Shown in pieces: positions 4,273 through 20,311 of a DNA stretch of 64,000 bases (position 1 is its first letter; each line of letters opens with the position of its first letter). Source of the DNA: Clostridiales bacterium (lineage in GTDB: Bacteria; Bacillota; Clostridia; Christensenellales; Borkfalkiaceae); assembly GCA_023667345.1 (NCBI GenBank), contig JAMPAF010000003.1, forward strand, positions 60,189 through 124,188, read 5' to 3'. The notes beneath the pieces were generated by a model. It made no database searches, was not told the DNA's origin, and saw nothing but the letters and a program-made list of their open reading frames with translations. The position numbers were made by a program, and so were the translations under genes.

Positions 4273-4299
4273 GACAAATGCCCGCAGCGAGCGTATAAT
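4271..4299 (+). promoter_or_regulatory. Consensus promoter of a small RNA
   Basis: TTGACA (4271-4276), exactly 17 bp, TATAAT (4294-4299): a perfect sigma-A consensus with no ORF of meaningful length downstream before the terminator. Confidence 0.85.
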
Positions 4300-4305
4300 A
4301 AAAGT

Positions 4306-4404
4306 ACGAACAAAGGGCGAAACCGATATGGGTTACAGCGGCGGTCAGCCTCAGCGTTCAGTTAAAATAACTGCTCACCTTAGCACGAGGGCAGTTATTT
4401 TTTT
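4306..4404 (+). ncRNA. Predicted ~100-nt small RNA, antitoxin-like
   Basis: Bounded by a perfect promoter and a 10-bp-stem terminator with seven T residues, so a transcript of about 100 nt is expected. It overlaps the 3' end of the convergent 34-aa ORF, giving about 40 nt of perfect antisense complementarity. The block GGCGGTCAGCCTC (from 4341) is nearly identical to the 5' leader of the opposing mRNA (GGCGGTTAGCCTCC on the minus strand, about 4543-4556). Layout resembles type I toxin-antitoxin loci that share a bidirectional terminator. An ATG at 4329 opens a 36-codon frame that runs through the terminator; I judge it non-coding because it has no good ribosome site. Confidence 0.6.
4365..4404. 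terminator. Bidirectional intrinsic terminator
   Basis: AAATAACTGC (4365-4374) pairs perfectly with GCAGTTATTT (4391-4400) around a 16-nt loop, then TTTT. The stop codon of the opposing 34-aa ORF lies inside the stem (4395-4397). Confidence 0.85.
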
Positions 4405-4499
4405 ATGCGTATCGTTACGTAATGTTCGGATACAGTGACAGAAGAAACGTTTTCGCGCCCTATTACGAGCAATAAGAAAAGTATGTACTTTACGTCCAT
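4395..4499 (-). CDS. 34-aa hydrophobic small protein, type I toxin candidate
   Basis: A tiny ORF not resembling any family I can name. Support for translation is strong: GGAGG eight bases before the ATG, and its own promoter upstream. The protein begins MDVKYILFLLLVIGREN: a short hydrophobic stretch (residues 5-13) followed by a polar, basic tail ending IRIKK. It lacks the longer membrane helix of Fst or TxpA, so a classical pore-forming toxin is not certain. It is transcribed toward the small RNA and shares its terminator. Confidence 0.55.
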   Translation of the reverse strand: MDVKYILFLLLVIGRENVSSVTVSEHYVTIRIKK

Positions 4500-4597
4500 A
4501 AATTTTACCTCCGTAGTTGATAATAAAAGTTGAATCAATTTTTGGAGGCTAACCGCCACAGGTCGCCCTGTCGTACTCCCGCCGAAGCGGGAATTAC

Positions 4598-4626
4598 ATA
4601 TTACAACAAAAACCGCCCAAAGTCAA
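4598..4626 (-). promoter_or_regulatory. Promoter of the 34-aa ORF mRNA
   Basis: Minus-strand TTGACT (4621-4626), 17 bp, TAATAT (4598-4603). It gives an approximately 90-nt leader containing two hairpins (CCCGCTTCGGCGGG and ACAGGGCGACCTGT). Confidence 0.6.
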
Positions 4627-4735
4627 GTAAAAGCCCGCACAACCGTGCGCGGACTTTTTTGCGCGGCGTTTTATTGATTACTCCCACCGCAATAGAACCT
4701 TCCCTTTTGAGGGAAGGTCACAATAAGGTCGAAAT

Positions 4736-4980
4736 AATCAACCTCTATCCCCTCTTCGAGGTACTTTCCCCTTTGAAAGGGGAAAGCAAGTGTTCCACAC
4801 TTTCCCTCGCCTTCCACTTTGAAGGGACAAGCAACGCATTACTCAAAACAGCACTGTGCGCTGTTTTGGCGTTGCGAGAGCAGTGAGCGCATACGTCCCG
4901 CGCGAACGCGACCAAACACGCCGTTTCCCTTACGGCGTGTGCGAAGGGTGGCTGCGTAAGCAGACGAAAGAGGTTGGTTC
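4736..4980 (+). repeat. Family A MITE-like repeat, copy 1 (interrupted by F1)
   Basis: Terminal inverted repeats are CAACCTCT and AGAGGTTG. Inside are GAGGTACTTTCCCC, GGGGAAAGCAAG and CGCCTTCCACTTTGAAGGG. About 120 bp of family F separates the GAAGGGA and GGTGGC blocks that are contiguous in copies A3 and A4. The rest of the 4211-5044 gap holds the RNA/ORF locus above and AATTCTTAATTCC-type units. Confidence 0.8.
4828..4945 (+). mobile_element. Family F nested element, copy 1 (inside A1)
   Basis: Three hairpins in series: CTCAAAACAGC with GCTGTTTTGGCG; ACGTCCCGCGCGAACGCG (degenerate here); ACACGCCG with CGGCGTGT. It is inserted after GAAGGGA and before AGGGTGGC. It has no coding capacity. 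Confidence 0.7.
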
Positions 4981-5044
4981 TATTAATTATTCCTTAGCTT
5001 AATTCTTAATTCCGAATTACGCATTCCTAATTCCGCATTATTTT

Positions 5045-5470
5045 CTACATAAACTTAGGCAAGTCCGAAACGTCTAACTGCCACTCGCGGCGACTGCGGG
5101 CGCGGTGAAGTTCGTTCGCCTCGCCCAAAGCCTTGCGGTAGTCGGCGTATGAGCAACCGTTGACCTTCATAAAGTGTTCGCTCGCCTCGCGCTCCCGCCC
5201 CATAAGCTGGGTTCTGCCGATATGAATCACCTCGTGGCACGCCCTGCACACCGCGACAACGTTTTTTAGCTTCTGCACGCCGCTCTCGTCGTCGTACTCC
5301 CACTGCTCGTGCGCTTCAAGCCGCGTTGTCGGCGCGCCGCAAATCATACACTTTCCGCCCGCCCGCGCGTACGCCTTTTTCCTTATTTTGTCCCATACCT
5401 CTTTGGGAAGTTCGCTCCGCAAATTAGAATACCAACAACTGTCGGGCACAAGCTCGAAATCAAGTTTCAA
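5045..5470 (-). CDS. HNH endonuclease-like protein
   Basis: A 141-aa protein with a zinc-ribbon-type HNH fold: CMIC, then LEAHEQWEY, then NVVAVCRACHEVIHIGRT. The two CxxC pairs would hold a structural zinc and the LEAHEQ/ACHEVIH histidines fit the catalytic metal site. The start overlaps the last 11 bp of the PdxR gene, so translation is probably coupled. A nuclease cotranscribed with an aminotransferase-like regulator has no obvious functional logic; it may simply have been captured. It lies about 0.8 kb from the smaller HNH gene but is not closely similar to it. Confidence 0.75.
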   Translation of the reverse strand: MKLDFELVPDSCWYSNLRSELPKEVWDKIRKKAYARAGGKCMICGAPTTRLEAHEQWEYDDESGVQKLKNVVAVCRACHEVIHIGRTQLMGREREASEHFMKVNGCSYADYRKALGEANELHRARSRREWQLDVSDLPKFM

Positions 5471-6818
5471 ACCAATTCACCTCTCTTATCCTTTCCTTTT
5501 CCACGCTTGAATAGTTTATGACCGCGACTTTACCGTAGCGCTCATCGGGCGAAAAGAGATAGTCGGAAACGCACTTCAATTTAATCCCCCGCTCCTTCGC
5601 CGCCCGCTTTATCTCGCTATCGCTTGCAAACGAGGGCAGGCGCACGGTTAAGTGCAAGCCCCCGCCCGTTTCGATAATTTCCTTTTCGACGGACAGATTT
5701 TCTATTATTTCCAATATCAGCGAGCGCACCCCGCGGTAGTAATTTTTGAGCCTTCCCACGTGCCTTTCGAAATAGCCGCCGTCCAACATTTTGGCAAGCG
5801 TTTTCTGCTCGAAGAGCGGCACGACGTTGGCGGAATTTGCAAATAATTCGCGGTAGCGGGCATATAGTCGGGGGGGTAGCACCATATAACCCATTCTCAG
5901 CGACGGCGCGAGCGTCTTTGAAAAGGTGTTCAGATATATCACCCTCTCGCCGTTCATACCCGCCATCGTCTGCAACGGTTTGCCGAAAAGACGGAACTCC
6001 GAATCGTAGTCGTCCTCTATGATATACGCGCCCGTCCTTTCCGCCCAGCCTAAAAGGCGTGAGCGGTTTGCCGCGGGCATAATCGCGCCCGTGGGGTACT
6101 GGTGCGAGGGCGAAACGTGCAGTGCGCATGCGCCGCTTATTTCCACCTCGTCGGGCTTGACACCACTGTCGTCCACGGGGATATATAGGCACTTTGCGCC
6201 GTTTAAGGCGTAGGTCTGCGGCACCCGCGCGTAGGCGGGATTTTCCACCGCGTACGGCTTTTCCCGCCCCAAAAGCTGCACTATTACGCCGTACAGATAT
6301 TCCGCGCCCGCGCCTATGACGATATGCCGCGCGTCCACCTTAAAGCCGCGGAAACGGTATAAATACGCCGCGATTGCTTCCTTTAACGCGGGGTCGCCGT
6401 CGCACGGAACGCGTTCCAAAAGGTGCCCGCCCTCTTCGGAAAGGGTCTGCCGCATAAGCTTTGCCCACCCCGAAAAGGGGAAAAGCTTTACGGGCGCACG
6501 ACCCGAGCACAGGTCGAGAGCATAAGCCTTTTCCGTCGGTTCGGGCGGGGCGGCGGTTTTCGGAATACTCACCGGTTTGAAAGCGTTGACCTCGGCGACG
6601 AAGTACCCCCGCCGCTGTTCGCTTTCCACGTAGCCCTCGGCGAGGAGTTGCTCGTACGCCGTCTGCACGGTGATAACGCTTACGCCGAGGTGTTCGGCTA
6701 AGCCGCGCTTCGAGGGCAGTTTGTCGCCGTGCTTTAAATTGCCGCTTAAAATGTCGTCGCGGATTGCGCGGTACAGCGCGTAGTATTTGTTTTTTTCGGA
6801 TAGGGTGTAGGTTAGCAT
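5460..6818 (-). CDS. pdxR: MocR/PdxR-family regulator (GntR HTH fused to aminotransferase domain)
   Basis: A 452-aa PLP-dependent transcription factor. Residues 1-70 are a GntR winged helix (LPSKRGLAEHLGVSVITVQ). The rest is a class I aminotransferase fold with the PLP-lysine motif NTFSKTLAPSLRMGY and an IEDDYDSEF motif. I used the ATG at 6818; the frame is open to 6914 but that extension runs into repeat sequence. It is divergent from pyridoxal kinase, which supports a role as a vitamin B6 sensor controlling pdxK. It is cotranscribed with the HNH gene downstream. The pdxR symbol follows context; the exact ligand cannot be told from sequence. Confidence 0.85.
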   Translation of the reverse strand: MLTYTLSEKNKYYALYRAIRDDILSGNLKHGDKLPSKRGLAEHLGVSVITVQTAYEQLLAEGYVESEQRRGYFVAEVNAFKPVSIPKTAAPPEPTEKAYALDLCSGRAPVKLFPFSGWAKLMRQTLSEEGGHLLERVPCDGDPALKEAIAAYLYRFRGFKVDARHIVIGAGAEYLYGVIVQLLGREKPYAVENPAYARVPQTYALNGAKCLYIPVDDSGVKPDEVEISGACALHVSPSHQYPTGAIMPAANRSRLLGWAERTGAYIIEDDYDSEFRLFGKPLQTMAGMNGERVIYLNTFSKTLAPSLRMGYMVLPPRLYARYRELFANSANVVPLFEQKTLAKMLDGGYFERHVGRLKNYYRGVRSLILEIIENLSVEKEIIETGGGLHLTVRLPSFASDSEIKRAAKERGIKLKCVSDYLFSPDERYGKVAVINYSSVEKERIREVNWFET

Positions 6819-6904
6819 AAGTTTAATTATGAATGCGGTGCTCCGCCTCACTGTTATTCTGTCCCGCGCGTGCGCGGCACGTAGTAGCGGAAAGCAGCAC
6901 CGCC

Positions 6905-7062
6905 GTCCCGTCATTATGAGGTTTTTACGGCACTACGGACTTGTCTGAAACATTAAGGAATTTAGCCGCAAAAACCGTGCCCGACCGCGTAGCGGTCGCA
7001 CGAAGTATAATCTTTTTGCGCGCCCTTTCTCGCGCAAAACTAACCTTGCCGCATTACAACGC
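6905..7062. repeat. Family H repeat, copy 2
   Basis: Repeats the GAGGTTTTTACGGCA, GGACTTGTCTGAAAC and TAGCCGCAAAAACCGTG blocks of the 3.7 kb copy. It carries an extra hairpin, GACCGCGTAGCGGTC, between the CCGTG and AATCTTTTTGC blocks. Confidence 0.65.
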
Positions 7063-7075
7063 AATTTAAGGCGAA

Positions 7076-7190
7076 CGCCCGCAAACTCCGTAATTCTGGA
7101 TTGCCGCGGCGTGCAAGCGCGCCTCGCAATGACGGTATTCGGGCAACGGATACGCGGTCGGGCGAAACGACACACTCCTATGAGCTCGTT
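7076..7190. repeat. Family I repeat, partial copy 1
   Basis: Contains AATTCTGGATTGCCGCGGC, CGCAATGACGG and CGAAACGACACACTCCTATG, blocks shared with the longer copies at 11.0 and 58.1 kb. It fills the pdxR-pdxK gap together with the family H copy. Confidence 0.55.
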
Positions 7191-7251
7191 AATCCCCGCC
7201 TTCACGCCGCTGGTATTATAAAATTTATTTAATTTGGATATTTTAATAATA

Positions 7252-7296: not shown

Positions 7297-8121
7297 ATGA
7301 AAACCAAAAGAATTTTGACAATGCAGGACTTATCGTGCGTGGGGCAGTGCTCGCTGACCGTGGCTCTCCCCATACTCTCGCGCTACGGCGTGGAGGCGTG
7401 CGTGCTGCCCACGGCGGTGCTCTCTAACCACACAATGTTCAAGGGGTGGAGTTACCTCGATTTGACGCCCGAAATTCCCGCAATCTTTGAGAACTGGAAA
7501 AACAACGGCATCAAATTCGACGCGTTTTTGCTCGGTTATTTGGGCAAAAAGGAGCTTATGGCGCTTGCCGAAAAGTGCTTCGACGGGTTTGCAAACGAGG
7601 GCGCGCCGATAATCATCGACCCCGTGTTCGCCGACAACGGCAAACTGTACGGCGGGTTCGATTTGGAGTACGTTGCCGAAATGAAAAAGCTTATCCGCCG
7701 CGCGGATATTATTCTTCCCAACGTGACCGAAGCGTGCTTTCTGACTGGCACAGAGTATAGAGAAGAGCATAGCGACGAATATATAAAAGAGCTTGCAGGC
7801 AAGCTCTTCGAAATAACCGGCAAAACGGTTGTGATTACGGGCGTAGAATGGAGCAATTTGATAGGCGAATACGTTTTAACCGAAATTATGCGCGCCAAAA
7901 AGCCCACTTTGCGCGGAGAGTACATCATGCTTGAAAAACTGCCTGAAAAGCGGCACGGCACGGGCGACATTTTCGCCTCGGTTTTCACGGCAAATTATTT
8001 GAACGGCAAGTCGCTTTCGAACTGTTGCTCTGCGGCAAGCCGATTTGTTATCGACTGCCTGAAAGAGACCGACCGCGCCCATTTTTACGGCGTGAACTTC
8101 GAAAAAGTGCTGAACGGATAA
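7297..8121 (+). CDS. pdxK: Pyridoxal/pyridoxamine kinase
   Basis: Phosphorylates the B6 vitamers to make PLP for salvage. The 274-aa ribokinase-fold protein begins with MQDLSCVGQCSLTVALP, the usual PdxK/PdxY start, includes VLSNHT and IIDPVFADNG, and ends with the anion-hole motif HGTGDIFAS. Length is normal. AGAGG lies about 10 bases before the ATG. It is divergent from the PdxR-type regulator, and the two together look like a self-contained B6 salvage module; no pdxST synthesis genes are present in the window. Confidence 0.9.
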   Translation: MKTKRILTMQDLSCVGQCSLTVALPILSRYGVEACVLPTAVLSNHTMFKGWSYLDLTPEIPAIFENWKNNGIKFDAFLLGYLGKKELMALAEKCFDGFANEGAPIIIDPVFADNGKLYGGFDLEYVAEMKKLIRRADIILPNVTEACFLTGTEYREEHSDEYIKELAGKLFEITGKTVVITGVEWSNLIGEYVLTEIMRAKKPTLRGEYIMLEKLPEKRHGTGDIFASVFTANYLNGKSLSNCCSAASRFVIDCLKETDRAHFYGVNFEKVLNG

Positions 8122-8197
8122 GAATTTAATGCAATAAGAACGGGAAATTTAATGCAGAATTAAGAATTAAGAATTATGCTAAGGAATAATTATTTAA

Positions 8198-8320
8198 ACC
8201 AACCTCTTTCGTCTGCTACGCAGCCGCCTTCCCCTTCAAAGTGGAAGGCGAGGGGTTGCGCGATAATCTTGCTTTCCCCTTTGAAGGGGAAAGTACCTCG
8301 AAGAGGGGATAGAGGTTGAT
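8198..8320 (-). repeat. Family A repeat, copy 2 (inverted)
   Basis: CAACCTCTTTCGTCTGC to GGGGATAGAGGTTG: the reverse complement of copies A3 and A4, without a family F insert. It fills the gap between the convergent pdxK and rtcB genes. Confidence 0.8.
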
Positions 8321-8377
8321 AAACCCAACCAAAATTCTGCATTCTACATTCTTAATTCTGAATTTAACTATTGCGCC

Positions 8378-9562
8378 TCACTCATTGCCCGCCTTGAAAT
8401 TGTAGACGGGCTTTATTATTTTTTCAATCTCCACGGTGGGCGAAATGAGCTCGATTATCTCCTGCATGGGCTTATACGCCATGGGCGATTCGTCGATTGT
8501 CGCTTCGGTAGCCGTGGTGGTGTAAACACCGCGCATTTCGTCCTGAAATTCCCGAACGGAGAAGAGCTGTTTCGCCTCGCTTCGCTTTAACAGCCTGCCC
8601 GCGCCGTGAGGTGCGGAATTGTTCCAGTCATCGTTGCCCTTGCCGCGCGCAATAACGCAGCCGTCGCGCATATTCATGGGGATAATCACCCTCTGCCCCT
8701 CGTGCGCGGGAATAGAGCCCTTGCGGATAATATTGTCGTCGTCGATAAAATTGTGCACCGTTTCGAAGCTTTCGGAGCGGTAAATTTTTAAAAATTTAAG
8801 TATGTCGTCCGCCATCTTTCTGCGGCTTAGCGAGGCGAATTTCTGGCAGAGACGCAAGTCGTGCAGATAGTCCTGCATGTGCCCGCCGTCGAGATAGCAA
8901 AGGTCGGCGGGAATTTTGGTTTTGTGCGCGTATTTTGCGTTCACTTCGGCGATTGCCGCGGGGATATCCCCCTGCCTTCCCGCCGCTTTCAGCTTTTCGG
9001 TGACCGCCGCCCGCTCATCTTCGGCACAGAATTTGCAGTCGTTTACGGCAAGTTTTTGATAGATTTTGGCGACCTGCAACCCGAGATTGCGCGAGCCGCT
9101 GTGGATAACCAAATAGCCGTTGCCCTCGCCGTCGCGGTCGACCTCGATAAAGTGATTACCGCCTCCGAGCGTGCCCAAAGAGCCGTAAAGTCTGTCGAAA
9201 TCGCGCAACTCTTTAAAGCAATTAAGCTGTTTTATCAGCTCCACGCCGCCGTATTCCTTGCGGCAAGCCGTGCCGCTGGGTATTTTCGCCTTTATGAATT
9301 TATCGAGTTCTTCGAGCGAAAAGTCCGCCTTGCCGAGCTCCACGGTAAGCATGCCGCAGCCCAAATCCACGCCCAAAACGTTGGGTATAATCTTGTCCGT
9401 AAGCTGTGCGGTGAAGCCCACCACGCACCCCGTTCCCGCGTGAACGTCGGGCATAATTCTTACGCGTGCAAGCGAAAAAGGGGGCTGTGCAATCAGCGTG
9501 TAAATCTGATTGACCGCCTCCGGTTCTATATTTTCCGTAAATATTTTCAAATCGTAACTCAT
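8378..9562 (-). CDS. rtcB: RNA-splicing ligase RtcB
   Basis: Joins RNA 2',3'-cyclic-phosphate (or 3'-phosphate) ends to 5'-OH ends using GTP and manganese. The 394-aa protein has the family signatures MPDVHAG, GVDLGCGM (metal-binding Cys69), GGGNHFIE, HSGSRNLG and APHGAGR, whose histidine becomes guanylylated. The chosen ATG (MSYDLKIF) has AAGGAAACT directly upstream; the frame extends 23 codons further but without a start signal. No rtcA or rtcR is adjacent, as is usual in Clostridia. Role in RNA repair is inferred from the family. Confidence 0.95.
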   Translation of the reverse strand: MSYDLKIFTENIEPEAVNQIYTLIAQPPFSLARVRIMPDVHAGTGCVVGFTAQLTDKIIPNVLGVDLGCGMLTVELGKADFSLEELDKFIKAKIPSGTACRKEYGGVELIKQLNCFKELRDFDRLYGSLGTLGGGNHFIEVDRDGEGNGYLVIHSGSRNLGLQVAKIYQKLAVNDCKFCAEDERAAVTEKLKAAGRQGDIPAAIAEVNAKYAHKTKIPADLCYLDGGHMQDYLHDLRLCQKFASLSRRKMADDILKFLKIYRSESFETVHNFIDDDNIIRKGSIPAHEGQRVIIPMNMRDGCVIARGKGNDDWNNSAPHGAGRLLKRSEAKQLFSVREFQDEMRGVYTTTATEATIDESPMAYKPMQEIIELISPTVEIEKIIKPVYNFKAGNE

Positions 9563-9676
9563 AGTTTCCTTAAAGTAAGACTTGGCTACACAAACTTCGT
9601 AATTCTGGATTGCCGCGGCTACGCCTCGCAATGACGCTTACGCGGGGCGCGACGAGTATTGCTAGCGAAGTTTATC

Positions 9677-10882
9677 TTACAGCCTTTCCGCGATTTTGCG
9701 CAAAAATTCCTCGCTGTCGAGCTTGACGGGGACAATCCCCTCGCGCTTAAACAATGGTATCAAATCGCCCGTCATATAGCCGCTTTCGATTGTGGCAACC
9801 GTCGCCGCTTCCAACCTCTTTGCAAACTCGACGAGCTCGGGAATATTGTCCAACTCCCCCCTCTTTGCCAAAGCGCCCGTCCACGCCCAAATGGTTGCAA
9901 CCGAGTTTGTAGACGTGCTCTCGCCCGCTCTCCACTTGTAGTAGTGGCGGGTAACCGTGCCGTGCGCCGCCTCGAACTCGTACTTTTTATCGGGCGAAAC
10001 CAACACGCTGCTCATCATACCCAAAGACCCGTACGCCGTGGCAACCATATCGCTCATAACGTCGCCGTCGTAGTTTTTGCACACCCACAAAACGCCGCCT
10101 TCCGAGCGCATGATACGCGCGACGATATCGTCTATCAGCGTGTACATATAGTAAATGCCCGCCCGCTCGAATTTCTCCTTGTACTCACCCTCATAAATTT
10201 CGGCAAAAATATCCTTAAAACGGTGGTCGTAGGTCTTGGAAATGGTGTCCTTCGCGCCCAGCCACATGGGAATTTTGTTTTCTAACGCAAAGTTAAAACA
10301 GCTCCGCGCGAACGCCGCAATGGACTTGTCGAGGTTGTGCACACCCTGCACTATGCCGTCGCCCTTGAACCCGTGTATGAGCTTGCGCTCCACCTCGTTT
10401 CCGTCTTTGTCGCATATGACTATGTGCGCGCTCTGCCCCGCTTCAACGCGGCTTTCGACCGCATTGTAGATATCCCCGTACGCGTGGCGGGCAAGCACTA
10501 TGGGTTTAGTCCACCCGGGCACGTATGGCGTAATACCCTTAACCAAAATGGGCGCGCGGAAAACCGTGCCGTCCAAAATGCGGCGGATAGTGCCGTTGGG
10601 GCTCTTCCACATTTTTTTGAGGTTGTATTCCTGCACGCGCTGGGCGTTGGGGGTAATCGTCGCGCACTTGACCGCAACGCCGTATTTAAGCGTTGCGAGC
10701 GCGCTCTCTTCCGTCACCTTGTCGTCCGTGCGGTCACGCTCGGGCAGACCCAAATCGTAGTATTCCGTCTTTAAATCGACGAAAGGTTCGATTAAAATTT
10801 CCTTTATCCATTTCCACAGAACGCGGGTCATTTCGTCGCCGTCCATCTCGACGAGCGGCGTTTTCATAACGATTTTTGCCAT
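9677..10882 (-). CDS. icd: NADP-dependent isocitrate dehydrogenase (eukaryote-like type)
   Basis: Oxidative decarboxylation of isocitrate to 2-oxoglutarate, giving NADPH and the precursor of glutamate. The 401-aa sequence belongs to the homodimeric type II subfamily related to mitochondrial enzymes: PLVEMDGDEMTR, KSPNGTIRRILDGTVFR, YDGDVMSD and AAHGTVTRHYY. AGAGGAAT precedes the ATG. It lies 114 bp upstream of rtcB on the same strand but the gap carries repeat material, so cotranscription is uncertain. No other TCA-cycle gene is present, consistent with a biosynthetic role. Confidence 0.95.
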   Translation of the reverse strand: MAKIVMKTPLVEMDGDEMTRVLWKWIKEILIEPFVDLKTEYYDLGLPERDRTDDKVTEESALATLKYGVAVKCATITPNAQRVQEYNLKKMWKSPNGTIRRILDGTVFRAPILVKGITPYVPGWTKPIVLARHAYGDIYNAVESRVEAGQSAHIVICDKDGNEVERKLIHGFKGDGIVQGVHNLDKSIAAFARSCFNFALENKIPMWLGAKDTISKTYDHRFKDIFAEIYEGEYKEKFERAGIYYMYTLIDDIVARIMRSEGGVLWVCKNYDGDVMSDMVATAYGSLGMMSSVLVSPDKKYEFEAAHGTVTRHYYKWRAGESTSTNSVATIWAWTGALAKRGELDNIPELVEFAKRLEAATVATIESGYMTGDLIPLFKREGIVPVKLDSEEFLRKIAERL

Positions 10883-10989
10883 AGCTTATTCCTCTTCGCT
10901 TTTTTACATTTTACTATAATTAAAGATAGCTTGGCAAGCGAATTGCAAAGCCGTTTGAGAATACGGCGTCAACCATGCGCAACTACTTG

Positions 10990-11245
10990 TCGCCGTTTGA
11001 GTTATGCCGTCATTGCGTCCGTCTGCCGCAGGCAGCCGCACGGAGCGAAGCGCAGTAGGAGCGTTAGCGACGCGGCAATCCAAAATTACGTAGTCTGCGG
11101 AACGTCGCTTCCTACTTGTCGCCGTATTACCACGAGGGGATTCTCTCAACTCGGTCGCCCGCTATTGCGGGTCTTCCTTCGCTCGAAATGACACGCTCCT
11201 ATGTGCTTGTATGATTATGCCCCGCCTTGCGGCGGGGCGAAATAA
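10990..11245. repeat. Family I repeat, copy 2
   Basis: About 250 bp containing ATGCCGTCATTGCG, AATTACGTAGTCTGCGGAA, TATTACCACGAGGGGATTCTC, CGAAATGACACGC and the hairpin GCCCCGCCTTGCGGCGGGGC. The copy near 58.2 kb has all these blocks in the same order. It occupies most of the icd-ddl gap. Confidence 0.75.
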
Positions 11246-11296
11246 AATACCTTAATGCGCTCGCAAATTATTTAAAATAATTACCGCAATTCAGCA

Positions 11297-12397
11297 TTAC
11301 TTTTTAATATTCGTATTCGGCTTGATGCCGTTCAAAATGCCCGTTGATATAACGCGGCGAGCCTTTCTGACTAAAAAGTCTGCCTTCGCCTGCTCTATGC
11401 ACGATAAAAGTACGCCGTAAAAACCTTTATAACTATCCGACAAAAGGTACTGCGACAGCGAGCCGGGCACCGTATTTATCTCGCTGAGATAGCGTTGCCC
11501 CCCGCATATTATGTAATCAAAGCGCACTATCCCCCGCATATTCAGCGCCGAATATATGCGCGCCGCCTCCTCTTTTATGCCTTCGGCGACCACCTCTTCA
11601 AGCTCGGCGGGGAACTTTCTTTTGCCGCCGCCGCAATACTTATCGTCGTAGGATAACAGGTCGCCGTCGGACGAAACCTCTTCGCATTCCGAGGTTATTG
11701 TCGCACCGTTCGGGCAATAAACCGCGCAATTTATCTCTTTTATAGGCGATAAATACTCCTCGATAAGCACGCCGCCGTCCAACTCGAACGCGGTATAAAG
11801 CGCCTCTTTAAGCTCGTTTTCATCGTCGCATTTGGCTATACCTATGCTCGAACCTAAGGTTGCGGGCTTTACGATTACGGGGTAGCCGACCGCCCTTGCA
11901 CCCTCGATTGCCCCCGTAATATCCCGCGAATAAGCGTATTTTGCGAGCTTTACCCCCAAACTTTGCAGCACGAGTTTGGTGTAGTATTTATCCATAAACG
12001 CCGCACTTTCGAACAGCCCCGCCGAAGCCAAAGGGATATTTAAAATATCGCACAGCCCAGCAACCGCGCCGCCCTCGCCCGCGCCGCCGTGACAGCAATT
12101 TACAACGCACCCGATTTGCGCAACCGCTTTGGGCCTGCCGCGCCCGTTAAAGATTATTACCCCGCCGTTTGAAAAACCGCATGTTGCGCACCCTTCATAC
12201 CCGCCGTTTTTGTAGACGGTAACGTCGGCAAGTTTTTCGTCCGCGTAAAATTTCCCGCCGTGGTCGATATAGACTGGCAGCACGGTTTTGCCGCCCTTTT
12301 TTAATACGTTGCACACCATCGTGCCCGTGATTACCGAGACCTCGTTTTCGGACGAAATGCCGCCGAAAAATACTAAGATATCATAATTTTTTTGCAT
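11297..12397 (-). CDS. D-alanine-D-alanine ligase-like ATP-grasp enzyme
   Basis: Expected to join D-alanine (or a related D-amino or hydroxy acid) to D-alanine for peptidoglycan. The 366-aa protein has the Ddl layout: FFGGISSENEVSVITG, CCHGGAGEGGAVAGL, FMDKYYTK, VKPATLGSSIGI and EINTVPGSLSQYL. It is divergent from standard DdlA/B: the usual HGxxGEDG box reads GGAGEGG, and the segment after EEYL reads SPIKEINCAVYC. These changes touch substrate-binding regions, so specificity may differ. It follows a MurF-like gene on the same strand, which supports a cell-wall role; a family G repeat separates them. Confidence 0.8.
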   Translation of the reverse strand: MQKNYDILVFFGGISSENEVSVITGTMVCNVLKKGGKTVLPVYIDHGGKFYADEKLADVTVYKNGGYEGCATCGFSNGGVIIFNGRGRPKAVAQIGCVVNCCHGGAGEGGAVAGLCDILNIPLASAGLFESAAFMDKYYTKLVLQSLGVKLAKYAYSRDITGAIEGARAVGYPVIVKPATLGSSIGIAKCDDENELKEALYTAFELDGGVLIEEYLSPIKEINCAVYCPNGATITSECEEVSSDGDLLSYDDKYCGGGKRKFPAELEEVVAEGIKEEAARIYSALNMRGIVRFDYIICGGQRYLSEINTVPGSLSQYLLSDSYKGFYGVLLSCIEQAKADFLVRKARRVISTGILNGIKPNTNIKK

Positions 12398-12465
12398 AAA
12401 AAAATCACCTCCGCAAAATATTTTTTCGCTTTGGTGAAATGGTTAAATTGTTATATTTTAAATAA

Positions 12466-12644
12466 ATAACGTAGCAAGCAAAACCGCGCTTTTGCGCAGC
12501 GCGCCCCAATTTGCGCATACCTGCGCCTCAGCGGGTGTGCGGCTGCAATTTTATTATATGAGTGCCCCTAAGATTGCAGCCGCGAGGGCAGCGCCCTTAA
12601 ATTCGTAGCGTTTTCTCGTCGGCGCCAGACGAGAAAACCGAGAG
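12466..12644 (+). repeat. Family G structured repeat, copy 1
   Basis: Contains GTAGCAAGCAAAACCGCGC, the stem GCGGCTGCAAT/ATTGCAGCCGC around a TATTATATGAGTGCCCC loop, a short stem AGGGC-AGC-GCCCT, and GTTTTCTCGTC/GACGAGAAAAC. It ends at the stop codon of the MurF-like gene. Copies G2 and G3 keep the stems with different bases. Confidence 0.8.
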
Positions 12645-14255
12645 CTAATTATAAATCTCCGGCAAGTCGTTTAAAAACAGCACGCAGTCGCCTTTTTCCA
12701 ACACGTCTTTCAGCTTATCCTGCGCCGCCGCAAGCGAGGGAACGACGGTCAGTTTTTCGGGGTCGCCGCCCGCTTCCAGATATCCGTTTTTGACGGCGGT
12801 GACAAGCGTTTCGCCCACCAAAATCACAAAGTCGAGCCCGACGAGTTCGCCGCCAAGAGCCGTATTTTCGCTCTCTTCCAAAATGCCGAGCTCCACCAAA
12901 CCGGGGGTTACGGCAATTTTTTTGCCGCCGAAATATTTTAAAACGGTTATCGCCGCCCGTGCCCCTACGACGTTGGAATTGTAGCCGTCGTCTAAAATGT
13001 TCACACCGCCGCTCTCGATAAGTTGCAGACGGTGTTCGGTGAACCCGAGCTCTTCAACCGCCGCGCAAATTTCGTCTATGCCCACGCCCATCCGATAGGC
13101 AGCCTGTGCGCACAGCCCGATATTGTTCGCGCTGTGCCCGCCAAGAAGCTTGGTTTTAACCCGCCTTTCCTCTCCGCCCAAGGTGAGCGTAAACTCGGTG
13201 CCCGTGCAGTCGGCTTTAATATCCGACACGCAGGTTACGGCAACCTTTTCGCCGTCGATATCCTTAAAGAGGTCGAAGCAGTCCGCCGCGATAAAACAAC
13301 TGTCTTTCGTGCCCGCAATGATTTCGCCCTTGGCGGCGACGATATTTTCGGGCGTTTTGAAGCTTTCGAGGTGTTGCGGGCAGATACCCGTAATGAGCGA
13401 ATAGTCGGGCGGGCAGATAGCGCAGAGCTCGGCAATATCGCCTTTATGCCGCGCGCCCATTTCGGCGATAAGCACGTCGAAATCTTTTAAGTCGCTACCG
13501 TTTACCGTGCGGGCGATGCCCAAAGGCGTGTTGAACGACGACGGCGTTTTAAGCACGCGAAACTTTTTTCCGAGCATCGCGGCAAGAATATTCTTCGCGC
13601 CAGTCTTGCCGTAACTGCCAGTTATGCCCACTATCATTATGTCCGCCGCCGCAACCGCGCGCTTCGCCTTTTTGACGTACGAGCAGTTTATGGGCGCTTC
13701 CCAGATAAGCGTAATTAAATTTGCAAGGCAGACGAGGGGGATAATTAAAAGGGGCAGAATTGCAAGCGCGCTGTATTTGAGCGTGGCAAACAGCCGCACG
13801 CCCCACACGCTTTCGCCGAAGTTTAAAAGCGTTGCGGCAAGGTATGAAAGCACCGCGAAAACCAACCATACGGTTACAAACAGCCGCTTGAAACGCGGGG
13901 TTAGCGTTGCACTGTTTTTTACCGCGCGGCGGCTGTCCGCAACCGCGTACAGCACGAAGAATATGAGGTACGCGCTTAGACCTATGACCGCCGCCCAGTG
14001 TGCCCCCGCAAAGCCGAAGCACAGCGAAATTACCGCCGAGGCGAGAGCCGAGGCGAGAGCAAGCAGTGAAAAACGCGCCTGCGTTAAGTTGTTTTTGCGC
14101 CCCGCCCAGCCGAAGAGCTTTGCGCCCTTATAGCCGAAGCCTTGCAAAATACCCAGCGTTTTGAATGAGGTAACGCTTAAAAAACACGCGAACACAACCG
14201 CGATAAGCGCGCACTCCAATGTAGTTTGCCAGTTTATGAAAATACCCATCGTCAA
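12645..14255 (-). CDS. Membrane-anchored Mur ligase family protein (MurF-like)
   Basis: Probably an ATP-dependent amide ligase acting on a UDP-MurNAc-peptide or a related wall precursor. The 536-aa protein starts with about 200 residues carrying several hydrophobic helices in place of the cytosolic MurF N-domain. It continues with the Mur ligase core: GITGSYGKTGAKN (P-loop), SSFNTPLGIA, IAEMGARHKGDI, and HRLQLIESGGVNILDDGYNSN, a MurF-type signature. The hydrolase upstream overlaps by 4 bp and the Ddl-like gene follows, so the three probably work together on cell-wall precursors. Whether it replaces or supplements a soluble MurF cannot be decided here. Confidence 0.8.
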   Translation of the reverse strand: MTMGIFINWQTTLECALIAVVFACFLSVTSFKTLGILQGFGYKGAKLFGWAGRKNNLTQARFSLLALASALASAVISLCFGFAGAHWAAVIGLSAYLIFFVLYAVADSRRAVKNSATLTPRFKRLFVTVWLVFAVLSYLAATLLNFGESVWGVRLFATLKYSALAILPLLIIPLVCLANLITLIWEAPINCSYVKKAKRAVAAADIMIVGITGSYGKTGAKNILAAMLGKKFRVLKTPSSFNTPLGIARTVNGSDLKDFDVLIAEMGARHKGDIAELCAICPPDYSLITGICPQHLESFKTPENIVAAKGEIIAGTKDSCFIAADCFDLFKDIDGEKVAVTCVSDIKADCTGTEFTLTLGGEERRVKTKLLGGHSANNIGLCAQAAYRMGVGIDEICAAVEELGFTEHRLQLIESGGVNILDDGYNSNVVGARAAITVLKYFGGKKIAVTPGLVELGILEESENTALGGELVGLDFVILVGETLVTAVKNGYLEAGGDPEKLTVVPSLAAAQDKLKDVLEKGDCVLFLNDLPEIYN

Positions 14256-14926
14256 CCTTTGCCGTTAAAAAAATCCGCTAAGAACGAATTGAAAACTTCG
14301 CTGTTTTCGCTGAAACAGAAGTGCCCGCCGTCGATTATTTTCAGCCTGCTTCCGTCTATCAGTGAGTGAAAAATTTCGCCCTCTTCCGCGGGCGGCGTAA
14401 CCGTGTCGCTCTGCCCGTAAACAAGCAAAGTCGGCACGCTTATTTTCTGTGCGCAAGCCCTCAAATCCTCGTTTACAATCAGCTTGTAACTCTCGCGCAT
14501 GAGGGGCGAAAGCGAGCGGTATTCCGCGCTCCCGAAGTGCCTTTCGGCAAATCTTGGGAACAGCTTTTTTACCCGCCTGTACCGCTTTACCCGCCGCATA
14601 TATTGGGGGGAACGGGGTTTTACCACCCCCGCGCCGCCCGTTATGACAAGTTTTTTTACAAGATTTTGCTCTCTTGCAAGCAGTTTGAAAATCACCCTTG
14701 CGCCGAAGGAATGGGCGACGGCGAAACAGCCGCCGAGCCCGCATTTATAAATGAATTCTTTCAGCCAGTCCGCATAATCGCCCACCGACCACGCCCTGTC
14801 CGTCGGCGAGCTTTGCCCGAACGCAGGCATATCCGGCGCAACCGCGCGGTAGCCGTTTTTCGCCAAAAAATCAATCTGATAATAAAAACTCTCTTTACTC
14901 GAAAGATAGCCGTGCAAAAGTAGCAC
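14252..14926 (-). CDS. Alpha/beta hydrolase, 5' end split by an apparent frameshift
   Basis: A 224-aa hydrolase starting at GTG 14926 (LLLHGYLSS). The nucleophile elbow is AHSFGARV and the acid/histidine motifs are YGQSDTV and DGGHFCF. The expected first strands are missing from this start, but they are encoded just upstream in the same frame (NGGYVSVAERGAGQS) without a start codon. They connect by a -1 shift to a TTG start at 14997. The shift falls on TTTTTTTTA at 14971-14979, which contains the slippery heptamer T TTT TTA. Either frameshifting, transcript slippage or a missing T in the assembly explains this. The stop overlaps the next gene by 4 bp. Confidence 0.75.
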   Translation of the reverse strand: MLLLHGYLSSKESFYYQIDFLAKNGYRAVAPDMPAFGQSSPTDRAWSVGDYADWLKEFIYKCGLGGCFAVAHSFGARVIFKLLAREQNLVKKLVITGGAGVVKPRSPQYMRRVKRYRRVKKLFPRFAERHFGSAEYRSLSPLMRESYKLIVNEDLRACAQKISVPTLLVYGQSDTVTPPAEEGEIFHSLIDGSRLKIIDGGHFCFSENSEVFNSFLADFFNGKG

Positions 14927-14970
14927 GCTTTGCCCCGCGCCCCTTTCGGCGACGCTGACGTAACCGCCGT

Positions 14971-14997
14971 TAAAAAAAATGGCTCTTCACCCCGCAA
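14971..14997 (-). other. Out-of-frame 5' exon-like segment and slippery site of the hydrolase
   Basis: TTG at 14997 opens M-R-G-E-E-P-F-F, then reaches the 8-T run. In the zero frame codons are TTT TTT TTA; slipping back one base gives AAC GGC GGT TAC, which leads straight into the hydrolase. The heptamer is at 14971-14977. The rimI stop lies 12 bp upstream. Confidence 0.55.
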
Positions 14998-15009
14998 AAA
15001 TATTCGCGG

Positions 15010-15444
15010 TTAAAACTCCTTTACCATAACGAGGCAGTCCTCGCCGTCGGAATAGTAGCGCGTGCGCGCGTGCACACCTTTAAACCCGCACGAAAGATAG
15101 AGCCCGAGAGCCGCGGAATTGGATACGCGCACCTCTAAAAACACCTTTGCCGCGCCCCGCTCATTCGCGTTATCGAGTAAGGCGTTTAAGATAGCCCTGC
15201 CGACGCCGCCCCGCCTGTACTCCTCGGCGACCAGCACGTTTTCCAAATCGCACGAATCGAGCGCGGTGCACGTGCAGCCGTAGCCGATAACCTCGCCGCC
15301 CTCTTCGGCGACGACCATTTCGTAAGCGGGATTTTCGAACGCAGAGGCAATCGTGCCGAAGCTCCAGCTCTCGCCCTTAAAGCATTCCTTTTCGAGTTCG
15401 GAAACGGCTAAAATGTCCTCGTATTTGCACTTGCGGATTTTCAT
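15010..15444 (-). CDS. rimI: Ribosomal protein S18 alanine N-acetyltransferase family (GNAT)
   Basis: Acetyl-CoA-dependent N-acetyltransferase; RimI modifies the S18 N-terminus in Escherichia coli. The 144-aa sequence has the GNAT core: ENVLVAEEYRRGGVGRAIL (acetyl-CoA pyrophosphate loop) and LEVRVSNSAALGLYLSCGF. It overlaps tsaB by 4 bp (ATGA). The tsaE-tsaB-rimI order is a standard Firmicutes operon. The substrate in this organism is not shown by sequence. Confidence 0.92.
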   Translation of the reverse strand: MKIRKCKYEDILAVSELEKECFKGESWSFGTIASAFENPAYEMVVAEEGGEVIGYGCTCTALDSCDLENVLVAEEYRRGGVGRAILNALLDNANERGAAKVFLEVRVSNSAALGLYLSCGFKGVHARTRYYSDGEDCLVMVKEF

Positions 15445-16064
15445 AAGCCGTGTATGCGCTTTTCGCGCTCCTCCTCCGCCTGCGACTTTTTAACGTACAG
15501 CGCCGTGGGCTCTCCGCCCCCCTTCATTTTCGCCGCCAAAACGGCGGGCACAAGGCACTTTTCGGGCGAGAACTTGGTGTAGAGGGGCAAATCAAGCTCC
15601 TCCGTGCCGTAAACCGGTCTGCCGAGCGCAATCAATTCCTCTGCCGAAACATAGCGCGGCGGCAAATCGCAAGAGCCGTCCGCGGCGTACCCGCAGACGT
15701 AGTAGTTGCCGTGCAGCGCGTCGATAGCGACAAGGTAATCACAACCGCTGTTGACATTATATGAGAGCATATCGAAGGTTGTTACGCCCGCCGCCCTTTT
15801 GCCGAGTGCAACCGCATACCCCTTTATGCACGATATACCTATGCGTATGCCCGTAAACGACCCCGGTCCCGTTACCGCCGCGAAAAAGTCGCACTCCGCG
15901 GGGGTCAAACCCGCCTCGGTCAGCGCGCTTTCAATCTCGTCCATAAGCACGACTGAGTGTTGCATAGCGCAGTCCTCAACGTACTTTACGACCCTCTTTT
16001 CGCCCTTGCACGCCGCCACGGTGAGATAGCGCGAGGACGTGTCTACCGCCAAAAAATTACTCAC
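15441..16064 (-). CDS. tsaB: tRNA threonylcarbamoyladenosine synthesis protein TsaB
   Basis: ASKHA-fold partner that scaffolds TsaD in making t6A at position 37 of ANN-decoding tRNAs. The 207-aa protein begins LAVDTSSRYLTVAAC and carries the family motif AVTGPGSFTGIRIG. It overlaps tsaE by 8 bp upstream and rimI by 4 bp downstream, so all three are one translation-coupled unit. The catalytic partner TsaD and the carboxylating TsaC are not in this window. Confidence 0.95.
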   Translation of the reverse strand: MSNFLAVDTSSRYLTVAACKGEKRVVKYVEDCAMQHSVVLMDEIESALTEAGLTPAECDFFAAVTGPGSFTGIRIGISCIKGYAVALGKRAAGVTTFDMLSYNVNSGCDYLVAIDALHGNYYVCGYAADGSCDLPPRYVSAEELIALGRPVYGTEELDLPLYTKFSPEKCLVPAVLAAKMKGGGEPTALYVKKSQAEEEREKRIHGL

Positions 16065-16538: not shown

Positions 16539-16886
16539 TTATAAAATGGTATTTCTGTTTGAAATTGCAACCTTTATTTCATTTATCCGTTTCACTATTT
16601 CTACTTTCCCGAAGTTTTCTGTTTCCAATACGTTGCCGCTATTTCTTTCGAGAAATGCTTGCAAAGTACATAATTTAGCTTTGATAAGTTCGTCATATTC
16701 AATAACATCCGCATTTTCCGAAGGAATAAGATATTTAAGTTTTTCCTGCAGAATCTTAAGTTCGTTGCATAAGCCGAATTTACCTTCCGCAAGCACGAGT
16801 AAGGCGTTTACCGATTTGCTGTTTTCAGCGATAAGCTCTCTGTCGTTTAAACGCTGTTCTGTTTTCTTTTTCGAAAATAAACTCAT
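16539..16886 (-). CDS. Unassigned 115-aa soluble protein (island gene 3)
   Basis: I do not recognise this family. The sequence begins MSLFSKKKTEQRLNDREL, is charged, has no membrane segment, and is predicted mainly helical, with heptad-like stretches (ELKILQEKLKYLI, VEIVKRINEIK). The start MSLFSKKK closely resembles the start MFSKKKSQII of the SPFH gene in the same operon. It follows the surface protein gene by 14 bp and is the last gene before tsaE. Its low GC, like its two partners, sets it off from the house-keeping genes on both sides. A cytosolic adaptor for the other two products is a guess. Confidence 0.65.
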   Translation of the reverse strand: MSLFSKKKTEQRLNDRELIAENSKSVNALLVLAEGKFGLCNELKILQEKLKYLIPSENADVIEYDELIKAKLCTLQAFLERNSGNVLETENFGKVEIVKRINEIKVAISNRNTIL

Positions 16887-16900
16887 AACTAATTATCTCC

Positions 16901-19123
16901 CTAATTATTCTGTTCGGCAAATAACAGAGCTATTGCCCCTTCATTATCCGTCCAATACCATTTATCAAAGCTCACATCTGTACTCACCAGTAGAGTAAAA
17001 GAGTTTTCCGCAATGTTTTTAAAATTCTGATACGAAGCATTTGAACCACTGCAATTTATAGTCGTTTTTACTCCTATTAAATTACTTGGAACAGTCGAAT
17101 TGGTAAGTCCCATCATACACCCGTGATATGTAAAGCCTTGACCGTTGCTGTAGTCTCCCACTTCCCTGTTAGGTGTTAGGGTATTATTTATTACAATATC
17201 TCTCGTTATCGTCGTACTTACTGCATGTCCGATTATGCCACCTACGACTGGAAAGGGTTGTCCGGCATGGTTACCCCACGCTGAATTCAATGTTTTACTT
17301 GTCGCTGTAATTATGTTGTTTTCGGTAAGACAGTCTATAATGTTGGATTTGTCGGAATAACCGCTTATACCCGCGCAACGTGCCGTATTACTTATATTAT
17401 TGTATCGCGACCATGTATCACTGTTTAAATTGCAGTTTGTAACATAACAACGCTGTATGGCACCTTCCCTTACTACTCCGCAGATTCCGCCAACATTACT
17501 TGCAAATTCCGAATCTTTATAAATATCCTGTTGCGCGCTCACACTTATCGAAATACTGCAACTTACAGCTCTGCAATTTATAATATTGCCGTTACTATAT
17601 CCGGCTATCGCCCCCGCATGCACATTCCGTTGCCAAGGCGCATAATCGAATTTTGTTACCGAGCCTTCCTTGCCTATCTGTAAGTTTTTAACAGTTGCGC
17701 CTGTAAGAAGTTGCCCGATAAATCCGGTGGCACTGTCTATGCTCCAAAAATCGGCCGCTGTATTTACTTTGAAATTATAAATAGCGTGACAGCCGCCGTC
17801 AATAGTTCCCTGAAACGAATTAATTACTTTCCAATACGCTCCGCCCAAATCAATATCGTTTAATATGAGATACTTCCCGTTTGTATTGGAAGAGATTATT
17901 CTCAATTCTTCTGCATTTTTTATATATGTAAACCCGTCATACTTTGAGTCGCGTATCCAATGAGCTGATAAATATAAATCATGCGCAACTGCCAAAGAGA
18001 AATTATACTCATTGCCCTCGCTGTACCAACCATCGAAAACGTACCCGAATCTTTCTTTCGGCTCTTCCGGTTGACTTACGCACTCTCCCCATTTTACCGT
18101 ACGAATGTCGCTCGACTGACTGATACCGTCAGAGAAAGTCACCCTCAATTTTCTCTCGGCAATAGCAATCAAACTTAAATTATCGGTACTGAATTCAATG
18201 CTTTCAAGCGATACGGAGATATCGGATATTTCTTCATAAGCCCCAGAATTATCTATCAAATAAATACCTATACACTCTTTATTGTAACCATTAGGTACAG
18301 GTATAGTAACCGCAACTTTAGAGTGGGGGTTAGCAATCGCACCGCTTTTATACAAATTAATCTCGTAGACTTCGAATTTCACTGCTATATCGTCTAATGC
18401 GGTGCCAACGACATTGTATTTCGGAGTATTTTTCTCAACATCTTGTACAGATAACGTTACGGAAAATTTATCAAAAATCCCGTACGCGGAATTATTTATC
18501 CGTACGCTTACACCTGTTTTATCGTCCCTTATTACGGGACAGTAGAAAAAGAAAACGAGAAAGACAGTTAGCAATATCGCTATAACACTCGTAAAAATGA
18601 GTGATATGACGAGTTTTTTCTTCTTTTTATTTTTGCTTTTCAGATTATTTTGCCGTTTTTCATATTCGTTGCAATAATCTTTATAAAGCTTTTCATATCC
18701 ATCCGTACGAGTTTTATCTGTGGAATCTACAGCATATGATTCCGAAACTTTTTTATATTCCCTTTCCGCTTCTTCATATTGATTAAAATCTTTAAAATTG
18801 TTAGTTAGAAATATAATTTTATACCAATGGTAAACAGGGTCAATATCAGCTATCGACGAATATGAATTTACAAGCAATTTTAATCCGTCACGCGCCTCGC
18901 TTAACGAACCTTCACCAAGAGAAGCTGTTTCCATTACGGCAGTTACCTTACTACGGTCGGCAACATATCTGTCAACTATATCTGAGCCCTCGCCTTGCGC
19001 TAAAAATTTTGCACCGCACACTTTACATGTGCATCTGGTAAAGCCGCTTAAAATATGTTCTTTTTCAAGCTCTTTTCCGCCGCATCCGAAACATTTTATG
19101 TCTTCTACGTATTTAAAAGCCAT
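16901..19123 (-). CDS. Zinc-ribbon / single-TM / InlB-repeat / beta-helix surface protein (island gene 2)
   Basis: A 740-aa protein, apparently spanning the membrane once. Residues 11-36 form a zinc ribbon (CFGC and CKVC). Residues 60-165 are a helical, tetratricopeptide-like region ending in a lysine cluster. The single helix is at about 171-195 (VISLIFTSVIAILLTVFLV). Outside are an Ig-like region (about 200-340), one InlB B-repeat (about 347-392, GYVFDGWYSEG) and a GLUG-type right-handed beta-helix of several turns (GAIAGYSNG, GGICGVV, GISGYSD, GGIIGHA). No signal peptide or LPXTG anchor is present. The cytosolic zinc ribbon plus TM recalls Bacillus YdjG/YdjH. It probably links an outside sensor to the SPFH partner; this is inference. 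Confidence 0.75.
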   Translation of the reverse strand: MAFKYVEDIKCFGCGGKELEKEHILSGFTRCTCKVCGAKFLAQGEGSDIVDRYVADRSKVTAVMETASLGEGSLSEARDGLKLLVNSYSSIADIDPVYHWYKIIFLTNNFKDFNQYEEAEREYKKVSESYAVDSTDKTRTDGYEKLYKDYCNEYEKRQNNLKSKNKKKKKLVISLIFTSVIAILLTVFLVFFFYCPVIRDDKTGVSVRINNSAYGIFDKFSVTLSVQDVEKNTPKYNVVGTALDDIAVKFEVYEINLYKSGAIANPHSKVAVTIPVPNGYNKECIGIYLIDNSGAYEEISDISVSLESIEFSTDNLSLIAIAERKLRVTFSDGISQSSDIRTVKWGECVSQPEEPKERFGYVFDGWYSEGNEYNFSLAVAHDLYLSAHWIRDSKYDGFTYIKNAEELRIISSNTNGKYLILNDIDLGGAYWKVINSFQGTIDGGCHAIYNFKVNTAADFWSIDSATGFIGQLLTGATVKNLQIGKEGSVTKFDYAPWQRNVHAGAIAGYSNGNIINCRAVSCSISISVSAQQDIYKDSEFASNVGGICGVVREGAIQRCYVTNCNLNSDTWSRYNNISNTARCAGISGYSDKSNIIDCLTENNIITATSKTLNSAWGNHAGQPFPVVGGIIGHAVSTTITRDIVINNTLTPNREVGDYSNGQGFTYHGCMMGLTNSTVPSNLIGVKTTINCSGSNASYQNFKNIAENSFTLLVSTDVSFDKWYWTDNEGAIALLFAEQNN

Positions 19124-19144
19124 ATTGCCTCACTTTTGTTAATT

Positions 19145-20182
19145 TTATAGTTTCTTTCCGCAATTTGCACAAAACAAAGCAGTATAATTGTTAGCTTTAC
19201 CGCAATTCGGACAAACAATCGGTTCTTTACTGACACGTTTACCGCAATTAGGGCAAAATTTGTCGGCAGGTTTATACTCGGTTCCGCAATCCGGACATTT
19301 GCAAATTTTAATCTCGGATTTTGCCTCGGTTGGTTTTTTATGACTACCTACAACCTTTAACACCTCATAATAGGCGGCTCTGTCTTGTAATTCGAGTTGA
19401 CGAAGATATTTCTCACGTTCCCATTGTTTATCGTCGAGCCTTTCCAATTCCGCAAGATATTCTTTTAATTTATCTTGCCTTTGTTTATCAGCTGCGGCGG
19501 ATTCGATTTTATTCATATCTTCGGCGAGCATATTGATTTCAGCTATTTTAAAGTTATGTAGACTCAACCCCCAATCACGCTCAAACATCGGACTAAGTAG
19601 TTCGCCCATACATTCGCCGATTAATTTTTTATTCGCCGTAAAACGGTCATATGTAAGATTCTTTTGTTCTACGATTCTAAAAAACGAGTCGGTAAATTCA
19701 GTTGCTACCGTTTCACTGAATCTCTTTTTAAACTCGTCTAAATTAAATTCCTTCTTAAAACCTACGACTTTACGAAAAAATTGTTCGGGATTAGAAACGG
19801 AAACGTCGAATTCTCCGTTTGCACCTACCGTCACAACTTTATTACTTACCGCATCCCGATACATTAATCTGTTCGGAGTACCCCATTTAATTAAAACCTG
19901 TGTATCCTTAGGAATATATATGACCTCGACGGACATACCTTGCTTCCAGTTTTTAATTTCTTTTTTATCGTCGAAAACATCATATGTACCGCTTTTATAA
20001 TAACGAACGTCTCCGCCACCCTTAATGACTATAGCACTATGTGTAATAGGAACCTCGATACGCGCTTCGGCGGAAGTTACTATATCGTTTACACGGACAA
20101 ATAAAATTTCGTTATCATCAATTTTTGCGTTACATAAATTTTGTTCGAATTTAATTATTTGGCTTTTCTTTTTCGAGAACAT
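19145..20182 (-). CDS. SPFH/band-7 protein with two C-terminal zinc ribbons, YdjI-like (island gene 1)
   Basis: A 345-aa protein of the virion-core/YdjI class. The SPFH domain spans about residues 25-235, then come a helical linker, then two zinc ribbons: CPDC...CPNCGKR and CPNC...CANCGKK. It lacks a membrane helix, like YdjI, which is recruited to the membrane in the Bacillus PspA (ydjFGHI) stress system. Here no pspA-like gene is next to it. It is the first gene of the three-gene operon and has its own promoter. GGGGGGTGT precedes the ATG. A role in membrane stress or membrane-domain assembly is inferred from the family. Confidence 0.8.
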   Translation of the reverse strand: MFSKKKSQIIKFEQNLCNAKIDDNEILFVRVNDIVTSAEARIEVPITHSAIVIKGGGDVRYYKSGTYDVFDDKKEIKNWKQGMSVEVIYIPKDTQVLIKWGTPNRLMYRDAVSNKVVTVGANGEFDVSVSNPEQFFRKVVGFKKEFNLDEFKKRFSETVATEFTDSFFRIVEQKNLTYDRFTANKKLIGECMGELLSPMFERDWGLSLHNFKIAEINMLAEDMNKIESAAADKQRQDKLKEYLAELERLDDKQWEREKYLRQLELQDRAAYYEVLKVVGSHKKPTEAKSEIKICKCPDCGTEYKPADKFCPNCGKRVSKEPIVCPNCGKANNYTALFCANCGKKL

Positions 20183-20223: not shown

Positions 20224-20252
20224 ATTATAACACCAAATGATAAAATTATCAA
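20224..20252 (-). promoter_or_regulatory. Promoter of the SPFH island
   Basis: Minus-strand TTGATA (20247-20252), 17 bp, TATAAT (20224-20229), 42 bp upstream of the SPFH start. Confidence 0.65.
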
Positions 20253-20278: not shown

Positions 20279-20311
20279 AAGCCCGTAGCGTTACAAGCTC
20301 GGGCTTTTTCG
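20279..20311. terminator. Terminator after trxA
   Basis: AAAGCCCG-T-AGC and GCTCGGGCTTT form an 11-bp stem with one bulge, flanked by T-rich sequence on both strands. It closes the hisS-trxA unit and insulates the SPFH island promoter. Confidence 0.75.

Follow-up and report, generated by a model that had tools for sequence, protein, structure and literature searches.

What kind of system is encoded by a small A + T-rich island of three genes between tsaE and trxA in a Clostridiales bacterium of the Borkfalkiaceae? The island lies in a 64,000 nt stretch of contig JAMPAF010000003.1 (positions 60,189 to 124,188 of the forward strand, assembly GCA_023667345.1), here termed the window, and spans window positions 16539..20182 on the minus strand. 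The favored reading, given a probability of about 0.58, is that the island was acquired horizontally and represents a cut-down version of a bacterial membrane operon resembling the endosomal sorting complex required for transport (ESCRT), by which archaea and eukaryotes remodel membranes. This reading is based on the genes observed, their co-location, the operon order, the composition, the domain matches and the absence of the island from this site in near relatives. The original prediction, made from the window sequence, had envisaged an undescribed envelope-sensing or phage-defense module.

Three genes of foreign composition

The features of the island and of the interval upstream of it are the following.

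19145-20182, minus strand: P0001, 345 amino acids (open reading frame call), SPFH (Band_7_1) protein with C-terminal zinc ribbons, no transmembrane helix seen
16901-19123, minus strand: P0002, 740 amino acids, zinc-ribbon-like and helical N-terminal part, one transmembrane stretch, InlB-type repeat and GLUG-like ectodomain
16539-16886, minus strand: P0003, 115 amino acids, from a family without a Pfam name, this member without a transmembrane helix, start MSLFSKKK
20224..20252, minus strand: promoter-like site ahead of P0001, TTGATA-17-TATAAT with extended TG, a consensus match only (the region has 18 such sites versus 11.9 expected)
20279..20300, minus strand: terminator-like hairpin in the trxA/P0001 interval, a consensus match only (7 in the region versus 3.3 expected)

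The three closely spaced reading frames had been predicted to occupy exactly this span, and all are open. As the intergenic gaps are only 21 and 14 nt, P0001, P0002 and P0003 are likely to form a single transcription unit. The lower GC content by which the island was singled out is also borne out: 0.380, versus 0.523 in about 20 kb of flanking sequence, and 0.335-0.356 at third codon positions of the three island genes versus 0.657-0.707 in six nearby genes. The composition of the island is foreign. A second A + T-rich stretch of the window is present at 44501-46500 (GC 0.38-0.39).

The genome that carries the window is 1.59 Mb and 83% complete. The tsaE neighborhood was read in 12 genomes of the same genus, with trxA also reached in eight stretches, and neither P0001, P0002 nor P0003 was found in these 12 (tblastn, E<=1e-6). 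In the three genomes nearest by TsaE identity the flanks are as in the window, and trxA and tsaE are separated by 78 nt (G012), by a single 127-amino-acid reading frame (G007) or by two reading frames (G063). The other five stretches that reach trxA display kilobases of ordinary-looking genes between it and tsaE. A fairly recent insertion is suggested by the foreign composition together with the near relatives that have no island at the same site.

P0001 displays the SPFH/Band 7 domain (PF13421, 5.7e-18, 65.8 bits versus a Pfam cut-off of 24), with C-terminal zinc ribbons (PF13240/PF12773). It is the SPFH-double zinc ribbon protein that had been predicted, a kind of module linked to membrane work, and it has the SPFH/zinc-ribbon architecture that is looked for in a phage shock protein (Psp) system. 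The InlB-type repeat of P0002 (PF09479, 2.4e-6) is just over the Pfam cut-off, with 28.0 bits versus 27. The other parts predicted for this protein were found at lower levels: the GLUG match is under the Pfam cut-off (E 0.18), an N-terminal CxxC pair and a single hydrophobic stretch at about residues 170-195 were spotted by eye, and the best zinc-binding model is weak (0.053), the zinc ribbon and transmembrane segment being otherwise by eye. P0003 has no Pfam family over cut-off, and an NCBIfam search of the three proteins gave nothing solid. P0001 (MFSKKK) and P0003 (MSLFSKKK) do share the SKKK start that had been noticed. There is no match to Snf7 or TIR in the three island proteins (Pfam), nor to the PspA family.

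A longer operon in relatives

In relatives, homologs of P0001 and P0003 stand at the head of an operon that consists of an SPFH protein, the P0003 family, two proteins of ∼200 and ∼190 amino acids (cl3 and cl5, respectively) and an AAA ATPase, often with zinc-ribbon/TIR or zinc-ribbon/GLUG proteins before the latter. P0003 homologs are found in 20 of 150 genomes, the window genome counted, and an SPFH homolog is directly adjacent in 18 of these 20. The usual place of the P0003 family is directly after SPFH; in the window, P0002 sits between the two, and in G015 the family is present without SPFH. In 21 of 93 genus genomes the family profile, A5, finds a match, weak or partial in some. P0001 shares 56-65% identity with the SPFH proteins encoded in the operons of G077, G018, G087, G120 and G006. 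At 16 of the 18 SPFH-P0003 loci, cl3, cl5 and the AAA ATPase follow. The contig end falls inside cl3 in G044. The SPFH-P0003 locus of G146 has cl3 but neither cl5 nor AAA, with a full set elsewhere on the same contig (L177).

A scan for cl5 in a collection of 84,980 species gave 96 relatives, and the loci of the best 80 of the 96 were analyzed. As cl5 was the bait, it is present in these by construction; the other operon genes are not. The loci are mostly from uncultured Clostridia, with a few from an "uncultured bacterium" and one from Bacilli. The order SPFH-P0003-cl3-cl5-AAA is kept in 72 of the 80. Exceptions are at contig edges (L121, L132, L142, L152, L179; L152 has a TIR-type reading frame, not cl3, before cl5), in L110, where cl3 is split in two pieces, and in L115 and L116, without SPFH/P0003 ahead of cl3. 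A single AAA gene is found in 53 loci and a double one in 25; in the remaining 2 the match is weaker than E 1e-30. Operon and flanks are alike in GC content in these relatives (median difference +0.011 over all 64 rows, including an artifactual one for L115, where SPFH is after AAA).

TIR-type proteins are variably present, and so is a trypsin-like protease with a zinc ribbon, found in 24 of the 80 loci. A protein of a mixed zinc-ribbon/TPR/TIR/LRR cluster, ∼400 amino acids or more, is found in 70 loci, and in 34 loci such a protein has a W..E motif, which we take to be like that of catalytic TIRs. Among 84 reading frames of this cluster, 42 display the W..E motif and 34 have one or more GLUG-like motifs; as the cluster profile includes LRR, a few of the frames are LRR-only. 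Many loci also have a small protein of ∼120-160 amino acids with the mixed-cluster profile between P0003 and cl3 (e.g., L143, 8931-9326); the one that was scanned has no Pfam family. The operon TIR protein at L117 (12904-16647) carries a C-terminal domain like that of ribosomal L7/L12 (PF00542, 1.2e-15).

Snf7 (PF03357) is the commonest Pfam match of cl5 (24 of 62 at E<=1, best 5.4e-5, all under the Pfam cut-off). With the predicted fold, Foldseek ranks 1-17 are all of the ESCRT-III superfamily, with no E-value significant. On account of these sub-cut-off matches and this ranking, cl5 appears to resemble ESCRT-III proteins. Vps4_C is matched by 28 of 28 operon AAA proteins at E<=1 (best 3.7e-8) and is over cut-off in the single member whose score was seen. 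The N-terminal profile of the AAA proteins has as its best PDB match 2mpk, a weak one (0.022), which we take to be a MIT domain, and the nearest relative of the core is Cdc48. Snf7 matches were found in 4 of 121 genomes; two are cl5 and two are a gene directly upstream of another AAA gene in a divergent operon. A divergent second ESCRT-like operon, at L245 (G107, 7453-15522) and L246 (G027, 1962-7194), encodes one or more helical proteins, a Snf7-like protein, an AAA protein, a trypsin-like protease and an AAA protein named RuvB-like by eye. By eye, a DIDYxGL/I-type motif lies close to the C-terminal end of the Snf7-like protein and recurs in the protease; it is perhaps a common MIT-binding tail.

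In the window genome, as far as its 83% completeness goes, no cl5 match was found with P0005, Snf7 or A4, the P0005 and A4 searches being without any positive, and no cl3 match in a search for which G077 served as the positive. The TIR part of P0007, a TIR protein of a relative, has no match there; nine matches all fall in residues 494-636, the LRR part. An AAA protein of 391 amino acids, 32-37% identical to four operon AAA proteins, is encoded on contig C27 (4.9 kb; locus L107, 594-4845). Downstream of it is a 626-amino-acid zinc-ribbon protein that by eye resembles an 820-amino-acid zinc-ribbon protein upstream of the SPFH gene in G068 (L248).

The place of P0002 and other explanations

Residues 287-524 of P0002 match an operon protein at L123 (blastp 1.7e-12) that combines TIR, LRR and an InlB repeat, with sub-cut-off GLUG and zinc-ribbon matches. 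By this likeness of the ectodomain, P0002 can be read as a putative TIR-less member of the zinc-ribbon/TIR/GLUG operon proteins of relatives. InlB/GLUG-type repeats are common in these genomes, which weakens the likeness to the L123 protein; P0002 matches in 69 of 150 genomes are in by far most rows to these repeats. The N-terminal part (residues 18-176) is matched in only 1 of 149 other genomes, G077, where the copy adjoins tsaE on a different contig from that of the SPFH operon. The tie of P0002 to the operon is weaker than that of P0001 and P0003. The original prediction was to be refuted if the three families did not occur jointly in other genomes; SPFH and P0003 do travel together, but P0002 does not do so regularly.

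The island might be a decaying remnant, an operon acquired or moved here whose genes for polymer, ATPase and effectors have been lost, so that three genes without selected function are left. Lone P0003-family genes in G015 (L100, 7687-8124) and G030 (L247, 6969-7394), in neighborhoods like the flanks of whole operons such as that of G057, suggest that loss of operon genes does occur, and operons seem to decay leaving P0003, with the rest apparently lost. The three open reading frames with their close spacing, the promoter-like site just ahead of P0001 and the 65% identity of P0001 to its G077 relative, in an alignment that spans its whole length, make decay unlikely. An independent envelope-stress module is considered rather improbable. 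It would be a pair of the YdjG/YdjI type, with an SPFH scaffold and a zinc-ribbon/transmembrane sensor, that was never ESCRT-like in this lineage. Membrane placement of YdjI depends on YdjG and YdjH (PMC8581546), the former a protein with zinc ribbons and a transmembrane segment (PMC11237479). G068, whose genome has no cl3, does have SPFH and a weak P0003-family match on a 7.8-kb contig, with a large zinc-ribbon protein upstream. P0001, however, is far closer to the operon-borne SPFH proteins than to that of G068, to which it is only 24% identical over the aligned part.

That the island is an anti-phage module of TIR type is very improbable. The foreign composition, the TIR proteins in relatives' operons and the W..E motif at 34 of their 80 loci would fit such a role, but TIR is missing from P0001, P0002 and P0003, relatives' operons share the GC content of their flanks, and scanning viral contigs with patterns yielded no confirmed relative of either cl5 or P0001. 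The best PADLOC match of P0001 is a partial one to LmuB (15.7 bits, E 0.0016), and P0002 and P0003 have none at E<=1. Phage defense as first proposed is accordingly unsupported by PADLOC; the SPFH/zinc-ribbon module is without a description among the literature matches listed. For the operon of relatives likewise, no description was found in the full-text literature, judged from titles and abstract starts among the matches listed, a scope outside which preprints and most subscription papers fall.

Among known systems, the Bacillus subtilis pspA-ydjGHI (Psp) locus shares an SPFH protein without a transmembrane helix (with a zinc ribbon, per PMC11237479), a zinc-ribbon/transmembrane partner, which here would be P0002, and a protein of the ESCRT-III superfamily, to which here a candidate is found in relatives only. 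It differs in that neither PspA nor the TPM-domain YdjH is seen here; the small, unnamed P0003 family and cl3 are present, and relatives' operons further contain TIR proteins, a protease and an AAA protein that matches Vps4_C. The predicted absence of PspA holds for the three window proteins, but the operon of relatives does have an AAA protein with a Vps4-type C terminus and a protein like those of ESCRT-III, the superfamily to which PspA belongs. In the available parts of Makarova et al. (2024, PMC10936438), archaeal Meth_adaptin loci have SPFH with a coiled coil and zinc ribbon beside ESCRT genes; the operon here is bacterial, with TIR and protease genes. Earlier work noted bacterial PspA/Snf7-family genes near AAA ATPases, Vps4-like AAA genes of bacteria, and PspA together with band-7 proteins (Ravi et al., 2024, PMC11237479). 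An operon that unites SPFH, P0003, cl3, a Snf7-like protein, AAA/Vps4_C, TIR and a zinc-ribbon protease is not described in the parts of that paper available.

A proposed scaffold and sensor

If the island is a cut-down ESCRT-like operon, the SPFH/zinc-ribbon and P0003-family proteins of the full operon would form a scaffold on the membrane side that recruits the cl5 polymer, which the Vps4-like AAA ATPase would remodel. Zinc-ribbon TIR or surface-ectodomain proteins and the zinc-ribbon protease would sense or execute. Recruitment, polymerization, sensing and transfer are what we infer here. The window would retain no more than the scaffold P0001 with its small partner P0003, and the zinc-ribbon/transmembrane/GLUG surface protein P0002, which most likely would sense the envelope and anchor P0001. 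Lacking genes for polymer and ATPase, this version would be sensor and scaffold only, or a remnant.

P0003 may be held at the membrane through its hydrophobic-basic start, and P0001 may be placed there by P0002 and/or P0003, by analogy with YdjI. This soluble SPFH protein of B. subtilis is needed, with YdjG and YdjH, to bring the ESCRT-III-family PspA to the membrane (PMC8581546, as far as available). By a crude test, 47 of 74 P0003-family reading frames are hydrophobic over a stretch at the N terminus. A start of the form M-x-hydrophobic-basic is present in 5 of 15 P0003s (those that by eye lack a transmembrane segment), 9 of 14 cl3, 6 of 14 cl5 and 5 of 18 SPFH proteins, versus 9 of 194 other reading frames. 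Window P0003 is outside this tally; the start is also present in window P0001 and, by eye, P0003. The recurrence of this start in P0003s without a transmembrane segment, cl3, cl5 and SPFH suggests that membrane anchoring may be interchangeable among the operon proteins.

It is put forward tentatively, as a possibility, that a genuine ESCRT machine of bacteria exists in gut Clostridia of the Christensenella/Coproplasma group. This would consist of an SPFH scaffold, an ESCRT-III-like polymer and a MIT-AAA-Vps4_C ATPase, with TIR and protease effectors coupled to it in a response to membrane damage or infection, and the window would hold its minimal, transferable scaffold-plus-surface-sensor part. 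If the operon is as it appears, it represents a conserved polymer-plus-ATPase device in a group of gut bacteria, tied to an SPFH scaffold and, at many of the loci, also to TIR proteins. If true, this would bear on the origin of ESCRT and on the ways in which damaged membranes are repaired or sacrificed by bacteria, besides supplying concrete, testable genes.
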